Shown: positions 14,947-29,756 of the stretch, in pieces | Layout of the letters: each line of letters begins with the position of its first letter | Numbering within the stretch: position 1 is the stretch's first letter | DNA from: Aureibaculum sp. 2308TA14-22 | GTDB lineage: Bacteria > Bacteroidota > Bacteroidia > Flavobacteriales > Flavobacteriaceae | Assembly (NCBI RefSeq): GCF_040538665.1 | Contig: NZ_JBEWXT010000001.1 | Location: 62,001-126,000 of the forward strand | Reading direction: 5' to 3' | DNA length: 64,000 nt | Program-made: the position numbers and the translations under genes | Notes under the pieces: generated by a model | Told to the model about the DNA's origin: nothing | The model's input: the letters and a program-made list of their open reading frames with translations, nothing else | The model's database searches: none

Positions 14947-16374
14947 TTATTCTTCCAAATATTTATCCAACAATTCCCTTATTTCTTTACCTTCCGGGCC
15001 AGGTGCATTTTGATGGACTAGTTTTCCTTTTTTATCGTATAATAAATATCTAGGTATTGTACTTAGTTTTAAATCTTTGTAAAAATTTGCACTCGAATAG
15101 TTGAGAGCCAAAATATTGTTCTTATTAAACCACAAGCCCTCTTCTGTTGAAGCTTTTTTCCATTTATTAAAGTCATTATCAATTGATATGTATAAAAAAA
15201 CCACATCTTTGTTTTTATAATCCGCTTTTAATTTCTTTGAAGCTGGCATAGCTGCTCTGCACGGAGCACACCAACTTGCCCAAAAATCTATATAAATCAA
15301 CTTTCCTTTATACTTTTCTTGAATGTCATTTAATTCTATTATTTCTTTTTTCGCATCTGTAAAATATACATCTTTTGTTTCCATTTTTAATTCCGAAAAG
15401 TCTAACAAGTAAGTGTTTTTTAAATCATTGATTAATAACGTATCATTGGTTACGTCTTTAAATATACTTAAATATTTATTTGAGATGTTTTTACTATTTG
15501 AATCATAGATTTTTTTAAGAAAATGATACAATAGATACTTTCTTGTTCGATTGGAGAAGTTTGGATTATTCTTAATCGAATCAAAAACAACTTCATAATT
15601 TTTAGAGAAAAGGGATTTTTCCTTCCGGTTTTTTAATGCGTATTTATAAAGGACATAGTTTTCAAGAAAATATCGATATGTTTTTAGATATAGTAACTCA
15701 TCTTCTTTTAAACTCTTTTTATCAATACTGTCAAAATTAATTTTATCTTTCATTAAATTAATATTTAAATATTTATTTCGACCTTTGTTAAGGAAATAAA
15801 TATCATCAGATATTAGATTGTTAAATCTAAGTGAATCCAAAAATTCATTAAACTTATAGTTGTACTTTACTAAATCTCTTTCATATTGATCTTTTTCATT
15901 TTTAGTTCTTTTGATTTTAAATTTTCTATAAAATTCAAATGCGTCTAGTGGTTTTTCAAATTTCATTTTTTTTTCAAAATTGAAATCATGTTTTAAAATT
16001 TTTCTATTAGCTATTTTAACATGAGGTCTATTATCTCGATTATGATCAAAAATTACTGTATCACCTTTGTGAAATATATAATAATTTGATTGCGGGAACT
16101 GAATATAAGCTAGACAAATTTTTGAGGCCGTTAAAGGCAAAAATAAGGTGTCTTCTGCTTCATTATCAACGTTTAAGATTATAGACTTAAAATCATAAAA
16201 TTGAGAGTAATAAATGTTCTCTTTTACATTAGAAACATTATTATGAGGGTGTTTTTTAAATATTAGGGTAATTCCATTCACTTCATTCGTTTTCTCCATT
16301 CTTTTGTGTTCTTCATTCTTTTGGTTACAATGAATCAAAAAAACAAAGGATATAAGAGTAATTTTTTTTAGCAT
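14947..16374 (-). CDS. TlpA-like thioredoxin-domain lipoprotein, unit 1 (CAPC)
   Basis: The start is the ATG at 16374 (MLKKITLISFVFLIHC, lipoprotein signal). A longer frame reaching 16617 has no signal sequence and overlaps the precursor peptide gene, so it is rejected. The result is 475 residues. Residues 20-340 form a variable Lys-rich domain, as in other Bacteroidota TlpA/AhpC-type lipoproteins. The C-terminal thioredoxin domain carries YIDFWASWCAPCRAAMP and a cis-Pro motif in STIPRYLLYD. It should reduce or exchange disulfides in the periplasm. It follows precursor peptide 1 by 55 bp, with a hairpin between them. Confidence 0.9.
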   Translation of the reverse strand: MLKKITLISFVFLIHCNQKNEEHKRMEKTNEVNGITLIFKKHPHNNVSNVKENIYYSQFYDFKSIILNVDNEAEDTLFLPLTASKICLAYIQFPQSNYYIFHKGDTVIFDHNRDNRPHVKIANRKILKHDFNFEKKMKFEKPLDAFEFYRKFKIKRTKNEKDQYERDLVKYNYKFNEFLDSLRFNNLISDDIYFLNKGRNKYLNINLMKDKINFDSIDKKSLKEDELLYLKTYRYFLENYVLYKYALKNRKEKSLFSKNYEVVFDSIKNNPNFSNRTRKYLLYHFLKKIYDSNSKNISNKYLSIFKDVTNDTLLINDLKNTYLLDFSELKMETKDVYFTDAKKEIIELNDIQEKYKGKLIYIDFWASWCAPCRAAMPASKKLKADYKNKDVVFLYISIDNDFNKWKKASTEEGLWFNKNNILALNYSSANFYKDLKLSTIPRYLLYDKKGKLVHQNAPGPEGKEIRELLDKYLEE

Positions 16375-16389
16375 TATAATTTTTTTGAA

Positions 16390-16413
16390 GAAAGAGCCTT
16401 GAAAGGCTCTTTC
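16390..16413 (-). other. Intergenic hairpin between precursor 1 and its TlpA gene
   Basis: GAAAGAGCC pairs with GGCTCTTTC around a short TTGAAA-type loop, with 11 possible pairs. On the minus strand it is followed by TTC and then A-rich sequence rather than a clean T run, so it may be a partial terminator or mRNA-stabilising element. Confidence 0.7.
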
Positions 16414-16429
16414 CAGTTTAAAAATAAAG

Positions 16430-16672
16430 TTAACAAACATTACAAGAATCAATCCAGCTTGCAGTGTTACAACTCTCACAACACCAATTATTACCTGGCT
16501 CTTCTCCAAATGATTCGGCTGTGTCTTGGGATACATTTTTTTCAACATAAATTTCCCCATCTCCATTTCTAGTAACATACGCACAACTACCTTCATCCAC
16601 TCTACCTCCAAAAACACTTTTTAACTCACTTCTTTGAAGCAATTCATTTGCTTCCACTTTAAAATTTCTCAT
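16430..16672 (-). CDS. Double-glycine-leader Cys-rich precursor peptide 1
   Basis: The product has 80 residues. Residues 1-23 are the leader: FKVEANELLQR, then SELKSVFGG ending in Gly22-Gly23, the classic C39-peptidase cleavage signature. The same leader, with 2-3 changes, begins the peptides at 21887 and 23822. The predicted core is 57 residues with six Cys (SC, WCC, ESC, DSC, NVC at the very end), no Lys beyond one, and is acidic. It is encoded beside the C39 exporter, the HlyD adaptor and a TlpA-like lipoprotein. It is likely cleaved during export and oxidised into a disulfide-bonded peptide. Role unknown: bacteriocin, signal or matrix peptide. Confidence 0.88.
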   Translation of the reverse strand: MRNFKVEANELLQRSELKSVFGGRVDEGSCAYVTRNGDGEIYVEKNVSQDTAESFGEEPGNNWCCESCNTASWIDSCNVC

Positions 16673-16692
16673 AATTTATAGAATTTTAAATT

Positions 16693-16700
16693 TATATTTG
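16693..16700 (+). promoter_or_regulatory. Putative -7 box TATATTTG of structured RNA copy 1
   Basis: TATATTTG matches TAnnTTTG. No TTG is found at the expected 19-nt distance, so the -33 half is missing or weak. The sequence and position are preserved in copies 2 (22149) and 3 (24055). Confidence 0.55.
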
Positions 16701-16788
16701 CCCTGAACAATTAAAGACCATCAAGGTTTTGGTCTGCCTTTCGCGAAAAGGATATTGTTTATTGCCCCGAATGCTCGGGGCTTTTTAT
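16701..16788 (+). ncRNA. Structured RNA element, copy 1 (divergent from precursor 1)
   Basis: Read on the plus strand, three hairpins follow a TAnnTTTG box: AGACCA/TGGTCT (16715-16736), CCTTT-CGCGA-AAAGG region (16737-16751), and a terminator GCCCCGA/TCGGGGC with T run (16764-16787). The U tract is on the plus strand only. It is 94/96 identical to copy 2 and structurally alike to copy 3. It lies exactly between the HlyD stop and precursor 1. Orientation suggests a small RNA of about 85 nt transcribed away from the peptide gene; a DNA or 5'-UTR role on the minus strand is the alternative. Confidence 0.7.
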
Positions 16789-16789
16789 T

Positions 16790-18091
16790 TTAATTGTACG
16801 TAAACAACTCTCTAAATTTATAGAAAATTCTCGCTGCTACACTCAAATCTTCCGTTATAATTTCTGCATTGCCCAATAATTCCTGATTAAAAGTAAAGGT
16901 TTTGTTGTACGATGTTTTTGTGCCATTGGGTAAAGAAATATAAACCACATAATTACCTTCATCATCAGGAGAAATTGAAAAATTAGTAACTTTTCCAATC
17001 AACATTCCGAACTGTTGGTACGGATAATTATCCAATTTTATAAAAACCTTTTGACCCACTAAAACTTTACCCGCGTTTTGTGCTGGAATTACCAACTTGC
17101 CCACTAAACTAGATGTATTGGTAGGTAAAATAGAAAATGCAATATCACCCGAATTTACAAATTGGTTCTCGCCCCAAAAATTTTGAAAACTAATAACACC
17201 ATTTATGGATGATTTTAACACGTATTTGTACTCCCAATCTCGAATAGCTTCTTTGAGAGAGTTATAACTTTGCGTTAAATTTTTGAGAAAGTTGGTTTTA
17301 TCTTCTTGTTCGTTTATTCTTGTAGTTTTCAAGGTGCTGTTGGCAGAGGAAATAGCCTCTCTCATTTGAGAAATAGATATAGCCATAGCATTGATATTTT
17401 TTTGCATCTGTAGATACTCCAACTGCTTATTTTCGTACTCCAATCTTGAGATAACACCTTTTTCAAAGAGCTGTTTTTGTCGTTCAAAATCGGTCTTTTT
17501 TAATTCAACTTCTTGTTCCAATAACTCTTTTTGATTGATTTGATTTTGTAACCGTACTCTAATTTCAGATAGTGATACCCTATTGCCTTGGATTTGATTA
17601 TTGTATGGGTCAAGGTCATTTAGTAATGTAAAATTTGTGTAACTTTTTTCAAAGTTGATAAGATCAATACTTATTTCGCCCAATTGCAATTGTGATGTTT
17701 TGCCAAAAGGGAAATTGAATTTTTCGGTATCAAACTGTAAGGTATCAATAATATGTTTTAGTACATAAACATCTCTATAATTGGCGGTGTTTCTTATAAT
17801 TGCTAGTTTTTCATTTGGTCTTACCGTGTCTCTGTTTTTAATGAAAACCTTTTCCAATTGTCCAGAATATCTCGCAACCACCCTTTCGGTGGGTTGTTCT
17901 GTAGTAACTAATACTTTTGCAGTAACAAAATCAGGATACTTGATGATAAATGCCAATATCAAAATAATTAATGTAAACATAAAAATTAAAGAAATACCCC
18001 AACGGACAATCCAAGCTGGTGGATTCGTTAGAATTTCTTGAACTTCTTCAGAGCGTAATTCCAAATTGTCTATTTTCTTGTTTTCTGGCAT
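16790..18091 (-). CDS. HlyD-family membrane fusion protein (peptide export adaptor)
   Basis: The protein has 433 residues. One transmembrane helix lies at about residues 30-52 (WGISLIFMFTLIILILAFII), then a lipoyl/barrel-sandwich half motif (ARYSGQLEKVFIKNRDTVRPNEKLA), a long coiled coil (residues 155-275), the second half (VLKSSINGVISFQNFWGENQFVNSGDIAF) and a beta-barrel. This is the periplasmic adaptor layout of type I secretion systems. It sits 96 bp downstream of the C39 ABC exporter, which it should partner. No TolC-type outer-membrane gene is in the window, so that component would be encoded elsewhere. Confidence 0.92.
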   Translation of the reverse strand: MPENKKIDNLELRSEEVQEILTNPPAWIVRWGISLIFMFTLIILILAFIIKYPDFVTAKVLVTTEQPTERVVARYSGQLEKVFIKNRDTVRPNEKLAIIRNTANYRDVYVLKHIIDTLQFDTEKFNFPFGKTSQLQLGEISIDLINFEKSYTNFTLLNDLDPYNNQIQGNRVSLSEIRVRLQNQINQKELLEQEVELKKTDFERQKQLFEKGVISRLEYENKQLEYLQMQKNINAMAISISQMREAISSANSTLKTTRINEQEDKTNFLKNLTQSYNSLKEAIRDWEYKYVLKSSINGVISFQNFWGENQFVNSGDIAFSILPTNTSSLVGKLVIPAQNAGKVLVGQKVFIKLDNYPYQQFGMLIGKVTNFSISPDDEGNYVVYISLPNGTKTSYNKTFTFNQELLGNAEIITEDLSVAARIFYKFRELFTYN

Positions 18092-18113
18092 TGATTTATA
18101 AATTTTGTTTAAA

Positions 18114-18142
18114 ACACCCCTATGGTCCCCTCAAGGGGACAA
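18114..18142. repeat. Short palindrome GTCCCC-TCAA-GGGGAC, REP-like
   Basis: A 6-bp perfect stem at 18125-18140 preceded by ACACCCCTATG. From memory, similar short palindromes occur widely between genes in Bacteroidota. It lies between the exporter and adaptor genes. Confidence 0.5.
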
Positions 18143-18187
18143 TTACTCATTTATAACTAATTTACTTATTTACTTAACTTCGGAATT

Positions 18188-20440
18188 TTATTTCTTCCGA
18201 GAATCTGTTCCCTCTCCCTCGGGGAGGGCTAGGGAGGGGCTACTTAATTTTTCTAATTCCAATTGATTTTTTACCAAATTATAATAGGCTCCTTTTTTAT
18301 TGAGCAACTCCTGATGATTCCCTGATTCTTTTATCTTGCCCTCATCCATAACCACAATTTGGTCGGCATGTTTAACGGTACTTAATCTGTGGGCAATAAT
18401 AATTACGGTTTTATCTTCAAAGAAATTATTCAGATTTTCCATGATGATACGCTCATTTTTCGCATCCAATGCAGAGGTAGCTTCATCAAAGAATAGTAAA
18501 TCAGGATTTTTATATACCGCCCTTGCAATAAACAAACGTTGTTTTTGACCTGTGCTGATGCCTATGCCTTCATTGCCAATTTTAGTGTTAAAGCCTAAGG
18601 GTAACGATTGTATAAAATCGTAAATATTGGCTGTTTTAACAGCAGACAACAAACGCTCTTGGTCAATAATATCTTCTCCTACGGCAATGTTGTAGGCAAT
18701 GGTATCATTAAAAATATAGCCTTCTTGCATTACCACACCACAATTGCTACGCCATGCTTTATGCGATATGGCACTTAGAAAATGGTCGCCATAGGTAATA
18801 TTTCCTTTATTAGGTTCGTAAAACTTCAACAAAATCTTCATTAAGGTGGTTTTTCCGCTGCCACTTGCCCCAACAATAGCCGTAATTTTATTGGCAGGGA
18901 TTTCCATGCTCAACTCCTTTATCACATTTTCGTCACTACCTATATATCGAAAAGAAATTTCGTTTAGTTTTAAATCTTGATTTGGTTTAATAGTTGAAAT
19001 TAACTGTTTTTCCTTATTTTCCTCATCTTCTTTATCATGGATTTCACCTAATCGTTCCAAACTTATTTTAGCATCTTGTGTAGCTTGTATAAAACCGACC
19101 AATTGGGTAATAGGTCCATTTAATTGACCAATAATGTATTGAATGGAAAGCATCATCCCTAAGGTAATAGAACCTTCAATGACCAAAATGGCTGAAGTAA
19201 ACGTGATAAAAATGTTTTTAATCTCGTTGATAAAAGAAGAGCCCACACCTTGGGTCTGCTCTAAGGCTAAACTTTGCATGGAAACCTTAAACAAACGAGC
19301 CTGTACAAACTCCCAGCCCCAACGTTTTTGCTTTTCGGCATTGTTCATTTTAATTTCCTGCATTCCGTTTACCAATTCAATTACGGTACTTTGTTCTTGG
19401 CTCAGTTGAGAAAACCGTTTATGGTCCAGTTCTTTTCTCCTTTTTAAGAAAAACAGAATCCAAATGACATAAATAATACTACCAACCGCAAAAATCAAAA
19501 AGATATAGAGGTTGTAGTAAATCAAAACCGCACCGAAAACGACTAGGTTCATCATGGAAAATAATGTACTTAGTGTTGAGCCTGTTAACAGTTTTTCTAT
19601 TCGGTTATGGTCATTGATACGTTGCATAATGTCGCCCGTCATTCGGGTATCAAAATAAGCAATGGGCAGGTTCATTAATTTTATAAAAAAATCGGAGACC
19701 AATGAAATATTTATGCGTGTGCTTAAATGCAACAAGATCCAACTTCTAAAAATATCGACACTGGTCCTGCCAATAAAAAGCATCAGTTGGGCAATAAGTA
19801 TTACATAAATAAAATTAATGTCCTGGTTCTGGATACCCACATCAACTATACTTTGGGTCAAAAAAGGAAAAATAAGCTGTAACAAACTGCCTACTAATAA
19901 CCCAATAAGCAATTGTACCAATAAGTTTTTGTACTTAAACAAATATTGGAACAAAAACTTAAACGACCTTTTGTCCGTATTGTCCCATTCCAGTTCCCTA
20001 AACTTTGGGGTGACCTCCAACAACAGGGCAATGCCTTCTTTAGTGTCTGTTGTGGCATTGTTACCTATCCAACGTTGTATAAATTCATCTTTGGTATAGG
20101 TTATCAACCCATAAGCAGGGTCGGAAATAGATACCACATCGTTTTTGATCTTATAAACCACAACAAAATGGTTCTTGTTAAAATGCACAACTAAAGGTAA
20201 CGGTGCTTCTGTTAGTTTTTGATAATCTATTTTAACCCCAATCGTTTTAAAACCGATGGCTTCTGCGGCATCGCTCAGTTTCATTAAGTTGCTGCCCTCA
20301 CGGGTAGTCTCGGACATGTCCCTTATTTCTTGCAACGTTATCAGTTTACCATAATGCTTGGCGACTATGCGTAAACAAGTGGGGCCACAGTCTTTGGAAT
20401 CTGGCTGTTTGTAGAAAGGGAATTTTTTGTTTGACACCAA
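18188..20440 (-). CDS. C39-peptidase ABC exporter (PCAT) for double-glycine peptides
   Basis: The protein has 750 residues in three parts. The C39 peptidase domain (1-140) has catalytic Cys18 (KDCGPTCL), His91 (NHFVVVY) and Asp107 (SDPAYG). A six-helix membrane domain spans about 165-450. The ATPase domain has Walker A GASGSGKTT (about 530), signature GISTGQKQR, Walker B LLFFDEATSALD and the switch His in IIAHRLSTVKHAD. Such PCATs cut leaders after Gly-Gly and export the core. Three matching peptides lie in the same cluster. The gene starts 7 bp after the TlpA gene of unit 2. The tail (PSLALPEGEG) is encoded by a GC-rich palindrome (18209-18241). Confidence 0.95.
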   Translation of the reverse strand: MVSNKKFPFYKQPDSKDCGPTCLRIVAKHYGKLITLQEIRDMSETTREGSNLMKLSDAAEAIGFKTIGVKIDYQKLTEAPLPLVVHFNKNHFVVVYKIKNDVVSISDPAYGLITYTKDEFIQRWIGNNATTDTKEGIALLLEVTPKFRELEWDNTDKRSFKFLFQYLFKYKNLLVQLLIGLLVGSLLQLIFPFLTQSIVDVGIQNQDINFIYVILIAQLMLFIGRTSVDIFRSWILLHLSTRINISLVSDFFIKLMNLPIAYFDTRMTGDIMQRINDHNRIEKLLTGSTLSTLFSMMNLVVFGAVLIYYNLYIFLIFAVGSIIYVIWILFFLKRRKELDHKRFSQLSQEQSTVIELVNGMQEIKMNNAEKQKRWGWEFVQARLFKVSMQSLALEQTQGVGSSFINEIKNIFITFTSAILVIEGSITLGMMLSIQYIIGQLNGPITQLVGFIQATQDAKISLERLGEIHDKEDEENKEKQLISTIKPNQDLKLNEISFRYIGSDENVIKELSMEIPANKITAIVGASGSGKTTLMKILLKFYEPNKGNITYGDHFLSAISHKAWRSNCGVVMQEGYIFNDTIAYNIAVGEDIIDQERLLSAVKTANIYDFIQSLPLGFNTKIGNEGIGISTGQKQRLFIARAVYKNPDLLFFDEATSALDAKNERIIMENLNNFFEDKTVIIIAHRLSTVKHADQIVVMDEGKIKESGNHQELLNKKGAYYNLVKNQLELEKLSSPSLALPEGEGTDSRKK
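18209..18241. repeat. GC-rich REP-like palindrome encoding the exporter's C-terminal tail
   Basis: CTCCC-TCG-GGGAG and flanking CCCTC/GAGGG repeats stand out from AT-rich surroundings. They translate to SPSLALPEGEG. PLPEGEG-like tails from such palindromes recur in unrelated bacterial proteins, which points to a repeat that captured the stop codon. Confidence 0.6.
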
Positions 20441-20447
20441 AAATAAT

Positions 20448-21806
20448 CTATTTTTTGTCCTCTAAAATTTTATCTAAATTATATAAGGCATCTTCACCCA
20501 CCCCTCTATATATTATCATTTTTGTGCTATTGTCTACTAAGATAAACGTAGGGTATTTGCCAATATTTAACTTACTTATAATAGGCTTTTTCTTATTTTT
20601 AACATCTACAAATGTTTGCTTCCATGGTATGTTGTTATCATCAATATATTTTTTAACAGTATTAATATCCCTATCGTAAGCTATACCTAAAATATCAACT
20701 TCCTTTTTATAATTAGTATAAAGTTTCTTTAATCTAGGGGTGGTTTTTATACAAGGTTTGCACCAAGTACCCCAAAATTCCAACAAAGTATATTTTTTTG
20801 AAAAATATTCATTGTCATATAGATTATAAGTAAAGCTATTTGTTAGATCATTAAATTTTAGGTTATATATTTTATAACCTAATTTATGACTATAGAATGG
20901 TTTATCAAGATTAATTTTTTTTAAAAACAATTCAGTAACTGAATTATTAATACTGTCTAAAATATAAAATTGATTTTCTATTTTTACAGTATCCTTAATT
21001 TTATATTCAAAATTAAAATTATAATCACTACTTGAATTACTAAAAGGTAAAGAATCAGGTTTAACTAATATACTTAGGTAAGGATAAATTCCTTGTACTG
21101 CCACTACATATTTCCTTTTAGTAAACCTAATATTGCCTTCCCAGTAATCCTTGAATCTTATGTGAATTCTAGATCTGTTAATGTTTTCATTACTGCTTAA
21201 AGAGCCATTATAGCTAGAATAAGAATTAGGATAAAATAACACTTCTCTATCGGTAATAGAGGTTTTTTCTTTGATGTTATTATAGAATCCAACCTTGTAA
21301 GTTCGAAGGTCATCGATATCTAATTCAGAATTATTAATTCTAAAATTATTGTCAAACACAACTGATTCATCATCTTTAAAAAAATTGTTGTTATTTTTAT
21401 CTAAAGTAACATTCTCTTTTCCATTTCTGTATTCCACCAAAAAATTCATAGGTTTCATATATATTTTTCTTTTCTCTGAAGATGTATCAATTTTTAAATC
21501 GATAATCTTTTGTTTATTAATCATTCCCATTTGATAGAGCTCATATTTAAACCTTTTATTATCTAATATTAGCGAAGATATATAAGAAGAGTCTTGTTTA
21601 AAGTTTTTGACATTATTCTTAAGATACTCATAGTATAAAGGATAAGAATGTTTTATGGAAGATGCCATAAAAGTATTGGTCATGCTATTAAATGCAATAT
21701 TTCTTTTACTCGTTTTTCCAAGCTGAATACTATAGTGTTCAATTTGATTTTTTTCTGTACAAATTGTTAATAAAAATATTAAAATCAAGTATATTATTTT
21801 CTTCAT
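20448..21806 (-). CDS. TlpA-like thioredoxin-domain lipoprotein, unit 2 (CKPC)
   Basis: The protein has 452 residues. MKKIIYLILIFLLTIC is a lipoprotein signal. Residues 20-320 are a poorly conserved, Asn/Lys/Tyr-rich domain. The C-terminal thioredoxin domain holds LEFWGTWCKPCIKTTP and a cis-Pro in IGKYPTFILVD. The dipeptide KP between the cysteines differs from the CAPC and CGPC of the two sister proteins, which changes redox potential in thioredoxins. It lies between precursor 2 and the exporter gene. It probably handles disulfides of the exported peptide in the periplasm; this is inferred from context. Confidence 0.9.
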   Translation of the reverse strand: MKKIIYLILIFLLTICTEKNQIEHYSIQLGKTSKRNIAFNSMTNTFMASSIKHSYPLYYEYLKNNVKNFKQDSSYISSLILDNKRFKYELYQMGMINKQKIIDLKIDTSSEKRKIYMKPMNFLVEYRNGKENVTLDKNNNNFFKDDESVVFDNNFRINNSELDIDDLRTYKVGFYNNIKEKTSITDREVLFYPNSYSSYNGSLSSNENINRSRIHIRFKDYWEGNIRFTKRKYVVAVQGIYPYLSILVKPDSLPFSNSSSDYNFNFEYKIKDTVKIENQFYILDSINNSVTELFLKKINLDKPFYSHKLGYKIYNLKFNDLTNSFTYNLYDNEYFSKKYTLLEFWGTWCKPCIKTTPRLKKLYTNYKKEVDILGIAYDRDINTVKKYIDDNNIPWKQTFVDVKNKKKPIISKLNIGKYPTFILVDNSTKMIIYRGVGEDALYNLDKILEDKK

Positions 21807-21823
21807 TTAAATTTTAATTTAAA

Positions 21824-21850
21824 GGGTTGCTAATTTTGAATTAGCAACCC
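21824..21850 (-). other. Intergenic hairpin between precursor 2 and its TlpA gene
   Basis: GGGTTGCTAATT (21824-21835) pairs perfectly with AATTAGCAACCC (21839-21850). On the minus strand it is followed by TTTAAATT, a weak U tract, so partial termination or processing could set a high precursor-to-TlpA ratio. Confidence 0.75.
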
Positions 21851-21886
21851 AAAATCTCAATAATAAAAAGTTTATTTTGCTACAAA

Positions 21887-22099
21887 TCAACTAGGCTCTC
21901 TTAAATCACAACCTTTCCATTGTTCTCCCATACAAGGTATGTCTTTGCAATAACCTTCAAGACCTCTCATAGGGTCACCCGCACAATCTGAATCTAAGCT
22001 GCATTGGTTAGTACACCCCTCATCTGCATTACCTCCAAAAACACTTTTTAACTCATTTCTTTGAAGCAATTCATTTGCTTCAACTTTAAATTTTTTCAT
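21887..22099 (-). CDS. Double-glycine-leader Cys-rich precursor peptide 2
   Basis: The product has 70 residues: a 23-residue leader (FKVEANELLQR, NELKSVFGG) nearly identical to the two sister peptides, then a 47-residue core with six Cys spaced GC, QC, DC, YC, PC, GC. Six evenly spread cysteines and Asp/Gly-rich loops recall small disulfide-knotted peptides, but I recognise no named family. The product should be cut after Gly23 by the C39 exporter encoded 1.7 kb downstream. It is preceded by structured element copy 2 and followed by a hairpin and the CKPC lipoprotein gene. No bacteriocin core motif is recognisable. Confidence 0.88.
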   Translation of the reverse strand: MKKFKVEANELLQRNELKSVFGGNADEGCTNQCSLDSDCAGDPMRGLEGYCKDIPCMGEQWKGCDLREPS

Positions 22100-22148
22100 A
22101 AAAAAAAATATTTAATTTTCATACCAAAACCATTAAAATGATTTGGCA

Positions 22149-22156
22149 TATATTTG
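22149..22156 (+). promoter_or_regulatory. Putative -7 box TATATTTG of structured RNA copy 2
   Basis: Same TAnnTTTG box and spacing to the hairpins as copy 1; there is no TTG at the -33 distance. Confidence 0.55.
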
Positions 22157-22244
22157 CCCTGAACAATTAAAGACCATCAAGGTTTTGGTCTGCCTTTCGC
22201 GAAAAGGATATTGTTTATTGCCCCGAATATTCGGGGCTTTTTAT
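22157..22244 (+). ncRNA. Structured RNA element, copy 2 (divergent from precursor 2)
   Basis: Identical to copy 1 over 96 bp (from the -7 box) except two adjacent changes in the terminator loop (GC to AT). It ends with GCCCCGA/TCGGGGC and a T run, which again abuts the stop codon of the next gene upstream of the peptide (TlpA unit 3). The flanks diverge at once on both sides, so the element is a discrete unit and not part of a larger duplication. Confidence 0.72.
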
Positions 22245-23767
22245 TAATTGTTTTTTAAATTAATTTTATCAATTATTTTTTTAAAGGCTAGGCTATCGGA
22301 GGGTCTGGGAGAATCCTCTGCTACAAGTAAATTTTGCTTATCAAAAATAACATATCTCGGAATGAAAAGCACCTTTAAAAGCTTAATTATGTCAGAATTT
22401 TTATGATTTAGAACGAGATATTGATTTTTTAACAAACCATAGTCAGATAATTCTCTGGTTTTTTTTATCCAGGCCTCTTTATCTTCATCAATAGAAAGAT
22501 ATATCCAATCTACGTCATCAGAAATATGTAATTTATTTCTAATTAAATTACTTTTTTTTACTTCTGTAATGCATGGGCCACACCAACTTGCCCAAAAATC
22601 AATTACCTTAATTCGTTCTTCCGATTTTTGAAATATTTCGTTAATTGATAAGGTATCTCCTTTGAGGTTTATTATTTGACTATTTAAAACTTTTGACGAC
22701 AATTTTTTGTTTAAATTGTTTAGACTTTTTTTAATGCTTTCAATTTTTGTTAATTGACTTTTCTTTGAAAAGTTGTGTTCGTAAGAATCAATCAACTGCC
22801 AGACTTTTTCTTTATTCTCATCTGGATTTTCAGTGAAATAATCAGTTATCAACCTAAAAATTGCATAATCCCGTACTTTTCCATTTAAATTGTTTAAAAT
22901 AAAATTCTTTTCTTCTACAAATCTTTCACTGGAAAATGCTTTATGATTACTATTAATAAAATAATATCGCAGATAATTAAGTAAACTTAAATAAAAGAAA
23001 TCTACATCAATTAATTCAGGTCTATCAAATATCTCTATGGAAATGTGATCAAAATAACTATCAATATCAAAATTCTTTCCTCCTTGTTTTATCAATTCTG
23101 GTATACTATTTTTTGGGAAAATTAACTGACCATTTATTTTTTTTGGTGCTATCAAATTATATAAATATTCAAACTCTAACCTTCCTTTAACCAATCTAAT
23201 AAAATCGCTAGACATTTTATTACTCTCAATATAATTCTCGTAAAAACTAATTTTTCCTTTATTTAGATATTTACATTTATTTTTGTAATTGGTTAAATTA
23301 TCCTCATGAATTGGCCATTTCGAAAATATACTATCCATTTTAGGATAGAATAAATATCTTGCTAAATTTTTCCCTTTAAAACTAATTTTTTTATCCTTGA
23401 TCAGAAATGAGATACTATCTCCAGGCAAAATTAATAGCCTCACATTATAATTGGTTTTTCCAATGAAATCGAGAGTAGAAAATTTTGGATTAACAATATC
23501 TTTTATTTTTATAATTACCGAATCTTTGTTGATTCTTTTAATTGAATTAATAGTGTCTTTATTGTATCTAAAATTAAAACCAGAAAGATTAATAATTTGA
23601 AAACCATTGTCATCATATGTTTTCCCATAAAGAACAACGGCACTGCTTTTATAAGGTCTTATTAAATTTAATTCAGATGATGTTTTTTTTGATTCAAATT
23701 TTGTTTTAACACAACCGATACAACAAGAAACTATGATACATAAGATAATAATATAATATCCTTTCAT
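22244..23767 (-). CDS. TlpA-like thioredoxin-domain lipoprotein, unit 3 (CGPC)
   Basis: The protein has 507 residues. The signal MKGYYIIILCIIVSCCIGC has several cysteines; Cys19 best fits the lipobox. A long variable domain follows, then a C-terminal thioredoxin domain with VIDFWASWCGPCITEVKK and cis-Pro in LFIPRYVIFD. It is a sister of the proteins at 14947 and 20448: same layout and local similarity around WASWC and the IPRY motif, but the long N-terminal halves are strongly diverged. It follows precursor 3 after a perfect hairpin. The likely role is thiol exchange on the cognate Cys-rich peptide, by inference. Confidence 0.9.
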   Translation of the reverse strand: MKGYYIIILCIIVSCCIGCVKTKFESKKTSSELNLIRPYKSSAVVLYGKTYDDNGFQIINLSGFNFRYNKDTINSIKRINKDSVIIKIKDIVNPKFSTLDFIGKTNYNVRLLILPGDSISFLIKDKKISFKGKNLARYLFYPKMDSIFSKWPIHEDNLTNYKNKCKYLNKGKISFYENYIESNKMSSDFIRLVKGRLEFEYLYNLIAPKKINGQLIFPKNSIPELIKQGGKNFDIDSYFDHISIEIFDRPELIDVDFFYLSLLNYLRYYFINSNHKAFSSERFVEEKNFILNNLNGKVRDYAIFRLITDYFTENPDENKEKVWQLIDSYEHNFSKKSQLTKIESIKKSLNNLNKKLSSKVLNSQIINLKGDTLSINEIFQKSEERIKVIDFWASWCGPCITEVKKSNLIRNKLHISDDVDWIYLSIDEDKEAWIKKTRELSDYGLLKNQYLVLNHKNSDIIKLLKVLFIPRYVIFDKQNLLVAEDSPRPSDSLAFKKIIDKINLKNN

Positions 23768-23783
23768 TATTTTGATTTTTAAT

Positions 23784-23813
23784 AATAAGGGTATTTTTAA
23801 AAATACCCTTATT
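23784..23813 (-). other. Intergenic hairpin between precursor 3 and its TlpA gene
   Basis: AATAAGGGTATTT (23784-23796) pairs perfectly with AAATACCCTTATT (23801-23813). There is no U tract on the minus strand, so this looks like a stabilising or processing hairpin rather than a full terminator. Confidence 0.75.
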
Positions 23814-23821
23814 TAATTTAT

Positions 23822-24034
23822 TTAACATATACAAACACCGCCTGAACCACCGTGATTTTGGCATGCATAGTCCATAGAGCCAGCAATACAATCTAAACAG
23901 TTTGCAATGATATTATCTCCATTCTCATCTTTATCTTTACAGGAGACCGTGCAGTAGGGTTCTGACCCTCCAAAAACACTTTTTAACTCATTTCTTTGAA
24001 GCAATTCATTTGCTTCAACTTTAAAATTTTTCAT
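23822..24034 (-). CDS. Double-glycine-leader Cys-rich precursor peptide 3
   Basis: The product has 70 residues: the shared 23-residue leader (FKVEANELLQR, NELKSVFGG), then a 47-residue core with seven Cys (PYC, VSC, ANC, LDC, YAC, GVC, IC at the end). An odd cysteine number leaves one free thiol, a dimer link or a modified residue. The C-terminal part has a Gly-Gly-Ser-Gly-Gly run before CIC. It is the first peptide gene after the VKOR-thioredoxin gene and is preceded by structured element copy 3. Export and cleavage by the C39 transporter of the cluster is inferred from the leader. Confidence 0.88.
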   Translation of the reverse strand: MKNFKVEANELLQRNELKSVFGGSEPYCTVSCKDKDENGDNIIANCLDCIAGSMDYACQNHGGSGGVCIC

Positions 24035-24054
24035 CGTTATAGAATTTTAATTAA

Positions 24055-24062
24055 TACTTTTG
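24055..24062 (+). promoter_or_regulatory. Putative -7 box TACTTTTG of structured RNA copy 3
   Basis: Matches TAnnTTTG and is followed, as in copies 1 and 2, directly by CC and the first hairpin. No TTG at the -33 distance. Confidence 0.55.
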
Positions 24063-24150
24063 CCTTGAATGGATCAGGGCATTCAAGACTATGCCCATTA
24101 TTCGCGAAATAATTCCGTACATTGCCTCGAGTACTCGGGGCTTTTTTTTA
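24063..24150 (+). ncRNA. Structured RNA element, copy 3 (diverged sequence, same fold)
   Basis: The sequence differs widely from copies 1 and 2 but keeps the architecture. Hairpin 1 is CTTGAATG/CATTCAAG (24064-24087). Hairpin 2 is TTATT-CGCGA-AATAA (24098-24112), the same loop as CCTTT-CGCGA-AAAGG in the other copies with compensatory stem changes. The terminator GCCTCGA/TCGGGGC (24124-24141) with T8 contains a T-G pair that is a valid wobble only on the plus strand. GGGCAT (24077) can alternatively pair with ATGCCC (24091). Confidence 0.7.
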
Positions 24151-24207
24151 TTGAAACTCAATTTTAAGAAATCTTTATAGACACACTTAAAATTGTTAGT
24201 TGAACTA

Positions 24208-24227
24208 ATTCCGTTGTAAAACGGAAT
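24208..24227. other. Perfect 8-bp hairpin after the VKOR gene
   Basis: ATTCCGTT pairs with AACGGAAT around a GTAA loop, 22 bp past the VKOR stop. There is no T run on either strand, so it is not a classic terminator. Confidence 0.5.
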
Positions 24228-24248
24228 CTCATCAATATGTATTTATTA

Positions 24249-25838
24249 TTAAATTAATACCTCACTTAAATCTTCTATACTATATTCTTTGGGTAATTTA
24301 TACCCATTAATAAATAGGGTTGGGGTATGTGTAATATTTTCCGCTTTACACCACGCCTTCATATCTTCTATCTTATCATTTTGTTGTTCCAATTCTCCAT
24401 TCATCGGGTATTGTTTTGCAAAGACATCATAATCTTTTTTCTCTGCCATATACCATTGATCTAATGCTTTTTGAGTTTCCTCTTTCTTATTATGGGCATC
24501 AATAGCTAAAAAATGCCGTACGGGTTTTGCTTTACGGTCTTTTTCGTTAGTTGTTGCCGTAAACAAAACTTGTAAATTAATGCTCCCAACATTTACCAAA
24601 TGCTCTAAAACAGGGTGTGCTTTTGCACATGGCCCGCAATAGGGGTTACATACTTTTATAACATTATACTTTGCATTTTTATTGGTTATTGAAATGCCTA
24701 AACCATCCGTACTATGTGTAACTTTATCAGACTTTGACAATAAACTTTTCAGCACAAAAGGGTTAGCCTTTATTTTTTTAAGTCCGCGTTTATACACATT
24801 GGTTTCTTTTTGTTGTTCTATTAAGGGTTTTATTAGTTTCCAAGACACAATAGGTATTAAAAACAAAGCCGCATATAACGGCAATAATTCTATGGCAAAG
24901 GTATTTTTATAAAACCCACCTAAAAAAGCAATGCCTACTTCTGCAACCAAAACGACTTGTATAACAATACAGAATTTGCACCATTGTTTAATAACCGCTG
25001 CTTGGTAATAGATAGAAATGGCAATAGCAGGTAGCGTTATTATGCTTGTAATTGCCAATATGCCAATTGCTGCACTTGAAAAAGTAAATAATGCTAAGTA
25101 GGTAAAAGTAGCAAAGAAATAAGAAAACCCTAATAATCCTAAACTTAAGTTGCCATCAAATAATGAAGCGTATTTAGATTTTAATACCGCATTGCAATTT
25201 ATATTTTTGCCACCTGTACAAAAACTTTGTAAGGTTGGATTATATTGGTCCACATCAAACCATAACAGAAATACACCTGCGGTTAAACCAACTAATTTTA
25301 ACAGACCATATACAACGGTATAGGTTGTTAATGTACTATTGCCAAAAACATCTGACTTTGTAAAGCTAATTACCACCCAAAGGGTCAACAGTAGAGCCGA
25401 TGTGCCAATTAAAACGGTTGTAAGCCTTTTGTCTGCTAGTTTTTTCTCAATATCAATTTCTTTTGAGGTTGCATTGGTTTCTGCCATAAGGCAAACACCT
25501 GTCCATAGTTTTAAAAACTTGGCTTTAGTCAACTCTTGTTTTTTATTTTTATCATCAAAATAGGTAACCGTTGTATCAGTAATATTGGTTAGGGTATAAA
25601 AAAGTGTTCTGCTATGGACGGAAACTTGGACAATACATGGAGTTGATAGCTCATCAAATTTTTCTTCAGTAATTTTTACAGCTAAATTTTCAATGTTGTA
25701 CCTTGTCAACGTATCTGCAATGGACAACAAACTGGGGTGGTCAGGGTGCGATAAAATGTTATCTTTTAAATAGGCGTTGGTATGTTTAACCTTAAGTCGT
25801 TTTAAAAGTTGTTTTGTAGCGATGTAACAATTATCCAT
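24249..25838 (-). CDS. C39-like / VKOR / thioredoxin fusion protein (disulfide-forming)
   Basis: The protein has 529 residues. Residues 1-120 resemble a C39 peptidase domain (HPSLLSIADTL; PCIVQVSVHS; FLKLWTGVCLMAE) but lack a KDCGxxC nucleophile motif, so it is probably a catalytically dead leader- or substrate-binding module. Next come about five membrane helices with VKOR features: CTGGKNINC (loop Cys pair) and CKFC (quinone-side CxxC). The C-terminal DsbA/thioredoxin_4 domain has CNPYCGPCAKAH. VKOR fusions couple quinone reduction to disulfide formation in exported proteins. It is located at the head of three Cys-rich peptide units, which it could oxidise. Confidence 0.88.
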   Translation of the reverse strand: MDNCYIATKQLLKRLKVKHTNAYLKDNILSHPDHPSLLSIADTLTRYNIENLAVKITEEKFDELSTPCIVQVSVHSRTLFYTLTNITDTTVTYFDDKNKKQELTKAKFLKLWTGVCLMAETNATSKEIDIEKKLADKRLTTVLIGTSALLLTLWVVISFTKSDVFGNSTLTTYTVVYGLLKLVGLTAGVFLLWFDVDQYNPTLQSFCTGGKNINCNAVLKSKYASLFDGNLSLGLLGFSYFFATFTYLALFTFSSAAIGILAITSIITLPAIAISIYYQAAVIKQWCKFCIVIQVVLVAEVGIAFLGGFYKNTFAIELLPLYAALFLIPIVSWKLIKPLIEQQKETNVYKRGLKKIKANPFVLKSLLSKSDKVTHSTDGLGISITNKNAKYNVIKVCNPYCGPCAKAHPVLEHLVNVGSINLQVLFTATTNEKDRKAKPVRHFLAIDAHNKKEETQKALDQWYMAEKKDYDVFAKQYPMNGELEQQNDKIEDMKAWCKAENITHTPTLFINGYKLPKEYSIEDLSEVLI

Positions 25839-25929
25839 AATCTGACAGTTATTATTTGAAACAGTTCAATTTCAACATTGAATGTATCAATAAAATTAGA
25901 TATAACTTTTGTAAAACTTGAAGTTTTTT

Positions 25930-25960
25930 CCTTACTAAAAGTAAGGCTTTTCCTTACTTT
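25930..25960. other. Two mutually exclusive hairpins between response regulator and VKOR gene
   Basis: CCTTACT (25930-25936) pairs with AGTAAGG (25940-25946), or AAGTAAGG (25939-25946) pairs with CCTTACTT (25952-25959). The second is followed on the plus strand by T6. The minus-strand mRNA could form either, an arrangement seen in attenuators. It lies just beyond the regulator's stop. Confidence 0.6.
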
Positions 25961-25963
25961 TTT

Positions 25964-26686
25964 TTACAAAAAACCTATTGCTTTCGCTTGTAGTATTAAA
26001 CCTCTGTCACTATCTACTTCAAAAATTTCTTTTAAACGGCGACGTCTTTTTTCTATACCGCTGATTGTTAAAGGAATATAATCAGGCATGTCTTTCATTT
26101 TTGTAGCATTGGACAACTCATATAATATTTTTATATCAATGTCATCAAGTTTATGGGTATATTTGTTTTTTCTTCGCAATATATCATCAACGGTATCACA
26201 ATAATGGGTTTTTCCGCTAACAACTTTTAATACTGCTTTTTGGAGTACTTTCTGGTCACTTGCATTATTCTTTATCAAAAAACCTTCTGGATTAAGTTTT
26301 TTAATTACAGAATTTATTCTAAAGCCATCATTATACGAAGTAATTACAATAATTTTAGTTTTTGGAGTATGCTCTCTTATCAATTCTCCTAATTTTTCGC
26401 CTGACTGATTTTTATCATCTTTAGATTCTCCGAGACGAATGTCTAGAATTACAACATCAAAAAATTCTTTAGAACTGGTTTCCTGAATTTTGGTTACCCC
26501 ACTTTCATAATCAAAAGCCTGAACAATATTAAATTTTAGCCTTGGCTTATTTTTTGGAATTAGATTTAAAACCATTTTAACAGCATCGGAAAACAGCTTA
26601 CAATCTTCAACAATTAATACGCTATAACTGTTTTTAAGAGGTTTTCCTGTGGTAACAACTTTCATAGCATTAAAAATTAGCGACAA
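25964..26686 (-). CDS. Orphan NarL/LuxR-type response regulator of the peptide cluster
   Basis: The protein has 240 residues (or 233 if it starts at MKVVTTGK, 26665). The receiver domain has VLIVEDCKL (acidic pocket), VVILDIRLGE (phosphoacceptor Asp) and VITSYND. The C-terminal 65 residues fit a LuxR-type helix-turn-helix (IDIKILYELSNATKMKDM; YIPLTISGIEKRRRRLKEIF). The recognition-helix region is unusually basic (EKRRRR). No histidine kinase lies nearby. It is upstream of, and in line with, the VKOR and peptide genes, so it is the natural candidate regulator. A tandem palindrome pair lies about 95 bp upstream. Confidence 0.85.
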   Translation of the reverse strand: MSLIFNAMKVVTTGKPLKNSYSVLIVEDCKLFSDAVKMVLNLIPKNKPRLKFNIVQAFDYESGVTKIQETSSKEFFDVVILDIRLGESKDDKNQSGEKLGELIREHTPKTKIIVITSYNDGFRINSVIKKLNPEGFLIKNNASDQKVLQKAVLKVVSGKTHYCDTVDDILRRKNKYTHKLDDIDIKILYELSNATKMKDMPDYIPLTISGIEKRRRRLKEIFEVDSDRGLILQAKAIGFL

Positions 26687-27989: not shown

Positions 27990-28820
27990 CTAAATTTTAA
28001 ATGTTACCACTGGGCGTAGAGCGTGATTAGCCAGTTCTTTACTAATACTTTCATTAAATAATTGAGATAAACCACTTCTGCCATGCGTATTTATGGCAAT
28101 TACGTCAGCGTTTATTTCTTTTCCGTAATTTAAAATGCCCTCTTCTATACTGGTATCGTTATAAATAGTTACAGAATAATCATCAAGATTAAAAGCTGAG
28201 ATGAAGTTGTTCAGTTTTTCTTTTGAATCTCTTGTAGGCTCAAAATTATGGATGGTATTTATATATAGAAAGTGAATTTTAGCATTGAAAAGTTTTGCAA
28301 AATCAATTACTTTATGGAAGTTGTTTTTGCTGTCCTCGCCGAAATCTGATGCAAAAATCATGTTTTTTATATCAAAATTATCAATATCTTGTTTAATAAC
28401 CAATACAGGTATGTCAGATTGCCTAACTACTTTTTCAGTATTAGAACCTACCAACATTTCTTTAATTCCGGTCGCTCCTTGCGAACCCATCACAATTAGT
28501 CCAACATTATTTTTACTACTTTCTTCAATAACACCCTGAAAAGCTTTTTTGAAAATTACAGAATCAATCACCTTTAGTCCATCAAAAAAGGGAAAAGCTT
28601 TAAACTCTCCAAATTTTTTGTGAATGGTTTTCATATAAAATATGGTTTGTGCTCCACCGCCTAAATTACCATCGACCATGGGGTCAACAGAGGTAGATGG
28701 TATATCTAACATATGCAATAAAATAATTTCGCTACCTGTTTGTTTAGCAATTGAGGCTGCTACTTTACAGGCATATTTTGCTTCGTCAGAAAAGTCGATA
28801 GGAACGAGTATTGTTTTCAT
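27990..28820 (-). CDS. Universal stress protein, two UspA domains (copy A)
   Basis: The protein has 276 residues with two tandem Usp domains. Domain 1 begins TILVPIDFSDEAKYACKVAASIAK and has the ATP-binding glycines in VMGSQGATGIKEMLVGSNTEKVV. Domain 2 begins MIFASDFGEDSKNNFHKVIDFA and ends AINTHGRSGLSQLFNESISKELA. Each piece is typical of ATP-binding Usp proteins of the Bacteroidota. It is a close paralogue of the gene 105 bp upstream, differing mainly in the middle. The cytoplasmic role is in stress survival; the partner is unknown. Confidence 0.92.
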   Translation of the reverse strand: MKTILVPIDFSDEAKYACKVAASIAKQTGSEIILLHMLDIPSTSVDPMVDGNLGGGAQTIFYMKTIHKKFGEFKAFPFFDGLKVIDSVIFKKAFQGVIEESSKNNVGLIVMGSQGATGIKEMLVGSNTEKVVRQSDIPVLVIKQDIDNFDIKNMIFASDFGEDSKNNFHKVIDFAKLFNAKIHFLYINTIHNFEPTRDSKEKLNNFISAFNLDDYSVTIYNDTSIEEGILNYGKEINADVIAINTHGRSGLSQLFNESISKELANHALRPVVTFKI

Positions 28821-28925: not shown

Positions 28926-29756
28926 TTAGATTTTAAAAGTAACAACTGGCCGTAAAGCATGATTTGCCAATTCTTTACTTATACTTTCGTTAAATAATTG
29001 TGCCAAACCACTTCTGCCATGTGTGTTAATTGCAATGATATCAGCATTTATTTTTTTTCCGTAATTTAAAATACCCTCTTCAATACTAACATCATTGTAA
29101 GTGTTTAAGGTATAGTTCTTTATATCAAATTCGCCTACAAATTTGCTTAGCTTGGCGTTTGTAACTTCAGTAGGTTCAAAATTGCGTGCTGTGTTTATAA
29201 AAAGCAGGTGTAGTTTGGCATTAAACGTATTGGCAAATTTTATTACTTTTGGAAATGTTGTTTTGCTTGTTTCGCTAAATTCAGATGCAAAAATAATATC
29301 ATCTACTTTAAAATTTTCAATATCTTGCTTAATAACCAAAACGGGGATATGCGACTGTCTTACTACCTTTTCTGTGTTGGATCCTACTAGCATTTCTTTT
29401 AGTCCAGTTGCACCTTGAGAGCCCATTACAATTAAATCAACATCATTTTTTTTACTTTCTTCGATAACGCCCTCAAAAGCTTTATGGAACTTCACAGTTT
29501 CGTTTAATTTAACACCTTCAAAAAAAGGCTGTTTTTTTAATTTTTCAAAACGCTTGTGAATGCCTTTCATAAAAAGGATAGTTTGAGCACCACCTCTGGT
29601 AATGTCTGATTCAAGAGGGTCAATGGCATCTGTAGGTATGTCAAGCATATGTAGTAAAATAATTTCACTTCCTGTTTGTTTAGCTATTGAAGCTGCTACT
29701 TTGCAGGCATATTTTGCTTCATCCGAAAAGTCGATGGGAACGAGTATTTTTTTCAT
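28926..29756 (-). CDS. Universal stress protein, two UspA domains (copy B)
   Basis: The protein has 276 residues, identical in length to copy A and sharing most of domain 1 and the C-terminal 30 residues (GRSGLAQLFNESISKELA). ATP-loop motif GSQGATGLKEMLVGSNT is present, and GRSG in domain 2. Copy A and copy B arose by tandem duplication; their central parts (residues 75-110 and 175-230) have diverged. The gene is divergent from rimP across a 162-bp region. A strong terminator follows, so the two copies are probably transcribed separately. Confidence 0.92.
   Translation of the reverse strand: MKKILVPIDFSDEAKYACKVAASIAKQTGSEIILLHMLDIPTDAIDPLESDITRGGAQTILFMKGIHKRFEKLKKQPFFEGVKLNETVKFHKAFEGVIEESKKNDVDLIVMGSQGATGLKEMLVGSNTEKVVRQSHIPVLVIKQDIENFKVDDIIFASEFSETSKTTFPKVIKFANTFNAKLHLLFINTARNFEPTEVTNAKLSKFVGEFDIKNYTLNTYNDVSIEEGILNYGKKINADIIAINTHGRSGLAQLFNESISKELANHALRPVVTFKI

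Follow-up and report, generated by a model that had tools for sequence, protein, structure and literature searches.

A putative production line for disulfide-rich Gly-Gly peptides in Aureibaculum, with a degenerate C39 domain, TlpA-like partners and a covarying structured element

Why would a single gene cluster combine one peptide exporter, one disulfide oxidase and three unrelated cysteine-rich peptides, each beside its own thioredoxin-like gene and its own structured element? The question is raised by positions 14947-26686 of a 64,000-nucleotide stretch of DNA (the window) from Aureibaculum sp. 2308TA14-22 (NCBI RefSeq assembly GCF_040538665.1, contig NZ_JBEWXT010000001.1, positions 62,001 to 126,000 of the forward strand), a member of Flavobacteriaceae whose 3.57-Mb genome is 99.7% complete. 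All protein genes of the cluster lie on the minus strand, in the order response regulator, VKOR fusion, peptide 3, TlpA3, peptide 2, TlpA2, exporter, HlyD adaptor, peptide 1 and TlpA1; an initial annotation had placed them there, and every one of these genes was confirmed. The cluster is probably a dedicated production line for disulfide-rich double-glycine (Gly-Gly) peptides, likely bacteriocins, with cytoplasmic oxidation, cognate TlpA proteins and control by the element. Beyond the initial annotation, we describe a dead C39 domain, a VKOR with reversed charges, a match between TlpA clade and peptide core, and covariation within the element.

Peptides, exporter and recurrence of the cluster

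The three peptides, encoded at 16430-16672 (peptide 1, 80 residues), 21887-22099 (peptide 2, 70 residues) and 23822-24034 (peptide 3, 70 residues), share a 23-residue Gly-Gly leader in which 20-22 of 23 residues are alike and 65-67 of 69 DNA bases identical, and continue into cores that are unrelated to one another and contain 6, 6 and 7 cysteines, respectively, much as the initial annotation had described them. A degenerate DNA pattern of the leader end matches the whole genome without mismatch only at the three peptide sites; with up to two mismatches it matches 21 sites, versus 6 for a reversed control. Scores against NCBIfam NF047798 (leader_Chryseo, bacteriocin-like protein) were 12.2-15.9 bits, under the curated cut-off of 23.5, and peptide 3 alone matched TIGR04149 (radical S-adenosylmethionine (rSAM)-modified, ribosomally synthesized and post-translationally modified peptide (RiPP)), at 14.6 bits versus a cut-off of 25. 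By inspection, the YGNGVxC motif of class IIa bacteriocins is absent from the three cores. An identity as lantibiotics or rSAM RiPPs was rejected, since no modifying enzyme was found among the ten cluster proteins scanned. As to whether this leader family had already been described with the same partners, a point that the initial annotation had raised, no such description was found in the open-licence literature searched, and the NF047798 matches are all below cut-off.

Of 299 genomes of the family, 39, its own included, have a match to the VKOR fusion (E <= 1e-20), and the relatives fall into a closer group of 42-58% identity and a distant group of 24-31%; the distribution is patchy, since one genome of the same genus (G119) lacks the fusion. 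Named genomes, when scanned, yielded 28 loci, including some in Niabella, Arachidicoccus and Chryseosolibacter, which we take to lie outside Flavobacteriaceae. After removal of duplicates and extra flanks by script, 71 non-duplicate fusion loci were compared. Within 5 kb downstream of the fusion, leader-type open reading frames (ORFs) occur on the same strand in 60 of these loci and on the opposite strand in 13 (113 versus 22 ORFs), and those with at least four cysteines number 99 versus 4. A C39 exporter was found downstream in 46 loci and an HlyD gene in 43; the scripted ORF calls used ATG starts, whereby some fusions, TlpAs and exporters were truncated or missed, and some of the misses fall at contig ends or in broken or non-ATG frames. 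Among the 103 peptides of these loci with at least three cysteines, the cysteine count is even in 87 and odd in 16, with a mode of 6, and the array of one locus (L066) reaches about nine peptides. Thus the fusion and Gly-Gly peptides do recur across Flavobacteriaceae; of the other parts whose recurrence in Bacteroidota the initial annotation had proposed to test, TlpA genes and the element are found in part of the loci.

The exporter (18188-20440, TTG start) is of the type of peptidase-containing ABC transporters (PCATs), with Pfam matches to Peptidase_C39 (113 bits), ABC_membrane and ABC_tran above cut-off. Its catalytic residues C18, H91 and D107 are intact, as initially annotated, and among 22 exporters examined the DCG and His motifs are kept in all 22 and DPxxG in 20. 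The genome holds only two C39 matches, the exporter and the VKOR fusion, so this is the only C39 exporter found. The adjoining HlyD-family adaptor (16790-18091) matches HlyD_3 at 49.9 bits and TIGR01843 at 96.1 bits, the latter under its cut-off of 208.65. The orphan response regulator (25964-26686, TTG start, 240 residues; Pfam Response_reg, 35.9 bits) is not a core part: only 5 of the 71 loci (the window, L055, L093, L097 and L158) have a relative in the 3 kb upstream of the fusion.

Several side observations concern these loci. Six to about nine differing cysteine-rich Gly-Gly peptides surround one exporter in L066 (10758-17188), L074, L092 and L094, with no TlpA gene recognized. In L060 (8852-18333) the exporter, HlyD and VKOR genes are split into several frames and the peptide and TlpA frames are open, through decay or sequencing error. 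ORFs of about 1100 residues lie upstream of the fusion in L056, L057, L061, L063 and L158, accompanied in four of these loci by an ORF of about 550-625 residues; these are SusC/SusD-like sizes. In the window, G+C-rich palindromic stretches of the gaggg/ccctc type are visible by eye at 18200-18235 and 18116-18142, perhaps a small mobile palindrome; the former makes up the end of the exporter gene and gives it an odd C-terminal tail. Outside the cluster, two adjoining and very similar 276-residue proteins (27990-28820 and 28926-29756), by eye resembling universal stress proteins, are an apparent duplication.

A C39-like domain fused to a disulfide oxidase

The fusion (24249-25838, 529 residues; Pfam Peptidase_C39 44.8, VKOR 56.3 and Thioredoxin_4 33.3 bits) comprises a degenerate C39 domain (about residues 1-122, with the Pfam match at 6-122), six hydrophobic segments, a VKOR domain and a thioredoxin (Trx) domain. 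A VKOR-thioredoxin fusion was indeed what the initial annotation had reported, but it had overlooked the N-terminal domain. By hhalign, this domain aligns with the C39 domains of the exporters with probability 98 (E 2.9e-13); the protein begins past the point where the catalytic Cys would stand, and nothing in it corresponds to the catalytic His. By inspection, the Asp position is retained in the window fusion and not generally in its homologs. A second active C39 peptidase was rejected on the grounds of the missing Cys and His. An AlphaFold2 (AF2) model of the fusion, with a predicted local distance difference test (pLDDT) score of 92.8, was matched by Foldseek to the ComA peptidase (TMt 0.76), to the C39-like domain of HlyB (3zua, TMt 0.70) and to DsbA/BdbD-type proteins.

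The oxidase part appears to be complete. Its four VKOR cysteines (C207, C215, C287 and C290) form the two loop cysteines and the CxxC of the VKOR family, and together with the CxxC of the Trx domain (C401-C404) they are invariant in 45 of 45 homologs, and in 47 of 47 in another alignment. The fusion is the only VKOR match in the genome, and a genome search for DsbB found no match. No C39-VKOR fusion was found in the open-licence literature searched, and the available part of PMC4555120 mentions neither C39 nor Bacteroidetes. We infer that the dead C39-like domain would dock leaders, which would join a leader-binding module to a complete VKOR-DsbA oxidase, because the three window leaders carry exactly V-4, L-7 and L-12, the residues by which the LahT peptidase grips its leader according to the accessible text of PMC6363468. 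Across the 103 peptides, a hydrophobic residue is found at -4 in 95, at -7 in 47 (Gln in 46) and at -12 in 82.

With six hydrophobic segments, and with no N-terminal signal peptide to be seen, the N-terminal domain, the active-site loops and the Trx domain would all lie on one side of the membrane. The VKOR-Trx layout has five helices, one fewer than the fusion. The density of Lys plus Arg per residue is 0.185 on the active-site side versus 0.033 on the other, and is higher on the active-site side in 44 of 45 homologs. In a joint alignment, the same two matched segments show the charge direction of the fusion in 16 of 16 fusions (16 of the 45 entered this comparison) versus 4 of 20 ordinary VKORs, with the first loop-Cys column misplaced in many of the latter. 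From 29 new VKOR loci, 28 were entered (L221, with values equal to those of L220, was left out), of which 20 are ordinary and four were taken as C39-type fusions (L218 and L235-L237, L218 alone being a known one); four VKORs with longer N-termini (L223, L227, L232 and L234) were also set aside, and they lean the ordinary way. By the positive-inside rule, this charge bias suggests that the oxidase active site faces the cytoplasm and that oxidation precedes export, which would suit type I export in that the substrate does not dwell in the periplasm. The premise of the initial annotation, that VKOR acts outside the cytoplasm, is therefore doubtful here: no signal peptide could be seen, and in 16 of 20 ordinary VKORs the charge bias runs the other way. 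Hatahet and Ruddock are said to have reported in 2013 an inverted, cytoplasm-facing VKOR for Aeropyrum.

TlpA-like partners and the structured element

Each peptide gene is followed at 54-80 nucleotides by a gene for a TlpA-like envelope thioredoxin: TlpA3 (22244-23767, 507 residues; Pfam Thioredoxin_8, 32.2 bits), TlpA2 (20448-21806, 452 residues; Thioredoxin_8, 63.6 bits; CKPC motif) and TlpA1 (14947-16374, 475 residues from the first ATG after peptide 1; Redoxin, 58.6 bits), whose open frame extends to 16617 and so overlaps peptide 1. The AF2 model of TlpA3 (pLDDT 84.8; 21-member alignment A4) has a Trx domain resembling Bacteroides thiol-disulfide oxidoreductases. The initial annotation called all three lipoproteins, one per peptide; the pairing holds, and the label fits TlpA3, but the residue preceding the Cys is an atypical His in TlpA1 and an atypical Ile in TlpA2. 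Of 35 TlpAs gathered, 27 carry a Cys between residues 13 and 35, preceded by Gly, Ala or Ser in 17 of the 27. TlpA-like genes accompany the system in 12 loci (the window, L054, L058, L060, L061, L064, L085, L088, L091, L093, L097 and L102) and in further loci besides.

In all, we assembled 35 TlpA-peptide pairs (23 hand-curated, 10 by rule and 2 added), or 30 after collapsing near-identical TlpAs; the rule-made leader/core splits of L162 and L165 are misplaced. Within TlpA clusters, core similarity, expressed as an alignment z against shuffles, averages 3.99 versus 0.62 +/- 0.32 when permuted, a value reached in none of 5000 permutations. Leader similarity within the same clusters (25 pairs with leaders) is 0.464 versus 0.422 +/- 0.041, reached in 750 of 5000. 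TlpA clade thus predicts the peptide core and not the leader, and given this difference a core and its TlpA tend to move together, with a leader that is specific to the genome. The core of peptide 3, for example, resembles those of L093 (z 7.9, or 6.8 in a second computation) and L125 (z 3.6-3.7), both beside TlpA3-type genes, the L093 TlpA being 34% identical to TlpA3. TlpA1 clusters with the TlpAs of L088, L133a and L144; the peptide 1 core resembles that of L144 by eye, and is weakly similar to those of L088 (z 2.3) and L133a (z 1.3). Separately, in L058, L119, L133 and L093 a core lies in frame by an open TlpA gene with its leader out of frame or absent, a pattern that hints at peptide decay with the TlpA kept, as expected of an immunity gene, or at sequencing error.

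Between the preceding gene and each peptide ATG, on the opposite strand, lies an element of about 86 nucleotides (e1, 16700-16785; e2, 22156-22241; e3, 24062-24145; all plus strand and divergent from peptides 1, 2 and 3, respectively). Elements e1 and e2 are 98% identical over 97 bases, and e3 differs from them by compensatory changes in 6 of 26 pairs. A covariance model, R1, was built from the three, which as members score 109.6, 110.3 and 89.9 bits, respectively. At E <= 0.01, R1 gave 63 matches in 38 of 83 sources, which had been picked because they contain the system or related TlpA genes; adjacency among them is therefore non-independent. In 61 distinct sequences, 90.2% of cells are paired, versus 35-51% when the structure is slid (0 of 500 shuffles); double changes fill 239 cells (0 of 500 shuffles) and fall in 21 of 26 pairs (15 of 500). 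A pseudoknot joins the 5' end with the first hairpin loop, with 91.6% of cells paired and 38 double changes (0 of 500 shuffles) and with pairings that include CCTTGA/TCAAGG and CTGTGA/TCACAG; other shuffle tests of it are less clear (pairs with a double change, 5 of 500; further pair types, 237 of 500).

The element is closely tied to the peptides. A divergent ORF lies within 200 nucleotides of 57 of 62 elements, at 24-30 nucleotides in 50 of the 57, under a loose criterion that accepts a GG or AG leader in these adjacency counts. In 60 whole genomes there were 16 element matches, of which 10 were fetched; nine adjoin Gly-Gly peptides, as do 6 of 7 once three copies already in the model or alignment are removed. 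Across 296 genomes of the order, at least 28 matches occurred in 6 genomes, and under strict filters that make this a lower bound, 23 of the 26 fetched have a divergent ORF; in genomes unused for the model the figure is 19 of 21, with 20 of the 21 from two genomes of one genus. The exception among the ten, L177 (G018:C1:1446896-1446983), is a strong copy (68.9 bits) with no recognizable Gly-Gly peptide beside it, possibly an orphan or decayed unit.

Identity with a known RNA was rejected for want of an Rfam match: at gathering thresholds the whole window gave two tRNAs only, and a permissive scan of 16600-16900, which contains e1, gave at best 19.9 bits versus a threshold of 88 and a best E of 0.043 (ncS54, 19.3 versus 43 bits). 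A dispersed repeat was likewise rejected, as R1 finds only the three copies in its own genome; a DNA search of that genome with the element gave two strong matches, the rest being short and weak. The open-licence literature searched describes no such element. As for its active strand, the available part of PMC9723704 gives TAnnTTTG as a -7 promoter motif, and this motif ends on the first base of the element in 37 of 62 cases and just before it in 2, versus 1.3 expected. In e3 it reads TACTTTTG, and in e2 and e1 (16693-16700 for the latter) TATATTTG, in each case ending at the first base. The 10 nucleotides past the last hairpin contain on average 6.6 T on the divergent strand versus 2.2 on the other. 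On the strength of this terminator-like T-run and the promoter motif, we lean toward a divergent small RNA over an element read on the peptide strand. A simple claim of a divergent-strand RNA was not kept, as GU outnumber AC pairs 91 to 49 in the nested structure but stand at 64 to 73 with the pseudoknot.

Proposed mechanism, alternatives and related systems

Together, these observations suggest how the cluster might work. Precursors would be recognized through their common leader, which the dead C39-like domain of the fusion would dock, presenting the core to the oxidase, probably at the cytoplasmic face. The C39 exporter would then cut after Gly23, and the oxidized core would leave by way of HlyD and an outer-membrane channel whose gene lies elsewhere. 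A TlpA-like envelope partner of its own would serve each core. Export in one step has no periplasmic stage, so this partner most likely encounters peptide arriving from outside and would be a cognate redox immunity protein or, less likely, a cognate isomerase. Bacteriocins are the likeliest identity of the peptides, and the element may control each peptide gene, most likely via a short divergent RNA. Taken as a complete package, with a leader-docked, cytoplasm-facing VKOR-DsbA oxidase, Trx-fold immunity that reduces the matching peptide, divergent pseudoknotted RNAs for each gene and core/TlpA cassettes exchanged under a fixed element/leader module, the scheme is unlikely to be right in every part. 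The broader proposal of the initial annotation, that the peptides form a disulfide-rich exported family served by redox partners of their own, has good in silico support from recurrence, mostly even cysteine counts and TlpA-core covariation; its placing of VKOR outside the cytoplasm is the part in doubt, and folding by the TlpAs is one option, which a cognate immunity-like role would fit at least as well.

A number of findings count against the production line as proposed. By ORF calls the exporter is missed in 25 of the 71 loci and HlyD in 28, and the element is not in all loci (none at E <= 0.01 in L061, L064, L085, L097 and L142; present in 38 of 83 sources). The cysteine count of peptide 3 is odd, and a cytoplasmic oxidase would have to compete with cytoplasmic reductants. 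In the pairing of cores with TlpAs, the correlation over the first 23 pairs is 0.65 by Pearson but 0.09 by Spearman; clade-A cores are heterogeneous (mean z 2.2) and one two-member clade shows no core similarity (z 0.07); peptide 2 and TlpA2 have no clade partner or close TlpA2 relative among the pairs; and the L165 core matches peptide 1 (z 7.6), yet its TlpA similarity of 0.14 is just under the clade threshold. Many multi-peptide loci have no recognized TlpA (L066, L074 and L092, for example), so that TlpA cannot be a general immunity factor. The wobble statistics on the active strand of the element are mixed.

The most conventional alternative has the VKOR and Trx domains in the periplasm, oxidizing released peptides, with the TlpAs as dedicated periplasmic isomerases or oxidases that fold each core. 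Characterized bacterial VKORs do, to our knowledge, work in the periplasm, and the C-terminal domain is DsbA-like, but the six segments, lack of a visible signal peptide and charge bias would place the N-terminal and Trx domains in the cytoplasm; moreover, the peptidase of a PCAT exporter is cytoplasmic, so that a domain made for binding leaders would, on the outside, find them already removed. Folding by TlpA gains from the cognate pairing, which fits a folding partner too, and from the bacteroidetocins, whose thiol oxidoreductase, in the available text of PMC6671954, was required for full toxin activity and gave no protection. We regard this arrangement as doubtful, though by no means far-fetched. 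That the TlpA genes are chance neighbours is very improbable: Bacteroidota are rich in such proteins, 354 of 397 family genomes match TlpA1 in a broad search dominated by general TlpA proteins, and the TlpA-anchored loci (L111-L141) yielded few new pairs, with several TlpA3-type genes lacking a recognized upstream peptide (L111, L112 and L114, for example), but in most pairs the TlpA starts about 9-225 nucleotides past the peptide (341 and 395 in L064) and its clade predicts the core type.

It is also quite unlikely that the peptides are not bacteriocins but cell-cell signals, with the response regulator and perhaps envelope proteins as their sensors. A regulator does lie upstream here and in four other loci, but it is confined to those 5 of 71, no histidine kinase was found among the ten cluster proteins scanned, and antagonistic peptides typically show such a high diversity of cores under a constant leader, here with up to about nine peptides in an array. 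Far more serious is the possibility, to which we give somewhat less than an even chance, that the element is a 5' leader of the peptide mRNA with its pseudoknot near the start codon, or else a DNA operator or recombination site. Its near-fixed spacing to the peptide ATG would be expected on that account, wobbles in the pseudoknot and hairpin 2 favour the peptide strand by 41 to 9, and a promoter motif at -12 to -5, as in the part of PMC9723704 cited above, means that divergent transcription would skip most of the pseudoknot's 5' arm. Against it stand the motif, with variable NN, at the element start, the T-run and the wobbles of helices 1 and 4, which favour the divergent strand by 32 to 14.

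If the production line is real, it would explain how disulfide-rich peptides are made in bacteria without general disulfide machinery, would tie disulfide formation at the cytoplasmic face to leader recognition and would introduce a redox-based cognate immunity. It would also add a large family of uncharacterized candidate bacteriocins in a group that is abundant in marine and soil habitats, for which the element, itself a new regulatory RNA candidate, is a structural marker.

Among known systems, the cluster is a variant of the PCAT-bacteriocin plan. Like the PCAT/C39 exporters of class II bacteriocins and microcins, it has an intact C39 exporter, a V-4/L-7/L-12 leader and an HlyD protein as in type I secretion, but it adds another C39 domain, a dead one joined to a disulfide oxidase, which is absent from the sets described in the literature examined. 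The C39-like domain of HlyB (3zua) similarly has the C39 fold without peptidase activity and, according to the accessible text of PMC6363468, recruits substrate; it is part of an ABC transporter, whereas that of the window is joined to a VKOR and a Trx domain. VKOR-Trx proteins such as 4nv6 (VKORC1/thioredoxin domain protein; E 9.9e-5) share the VKOR core and C-terminal thioredoxin domain, but lack the extra N-terminal segment, the C39-like domain and the reversed charge bias. The element can be likened, by title alone, to the cis-encoded small RNAs of Bacteroides (Cao et al. 2016, cited in the available part of PMC9723704), short RNAs beside regulated genes in Bacteroidota. The nearest known system is that of the bacteroidetocins (class IIf; Coyne et al. 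2019, PMC6671954, in the part available), which likewise come from Bacteroidota and combine a Gly-Gly leader, a Cys-bearing peptide, a C39 ABC transporter and an adjoining thiol oxidoreductase gene. Theirs, however, is a leader of 15-16 residues on one peptide of about 42 residues (four cysteines in A and B) with a five-transmembrane protein, in contrast to the 23-residue leader, several unrelated and mostly six-cysteine cores, C39-like/VKOR/Trx fusion, HlyD, element and one TlpA per peptide seen here.

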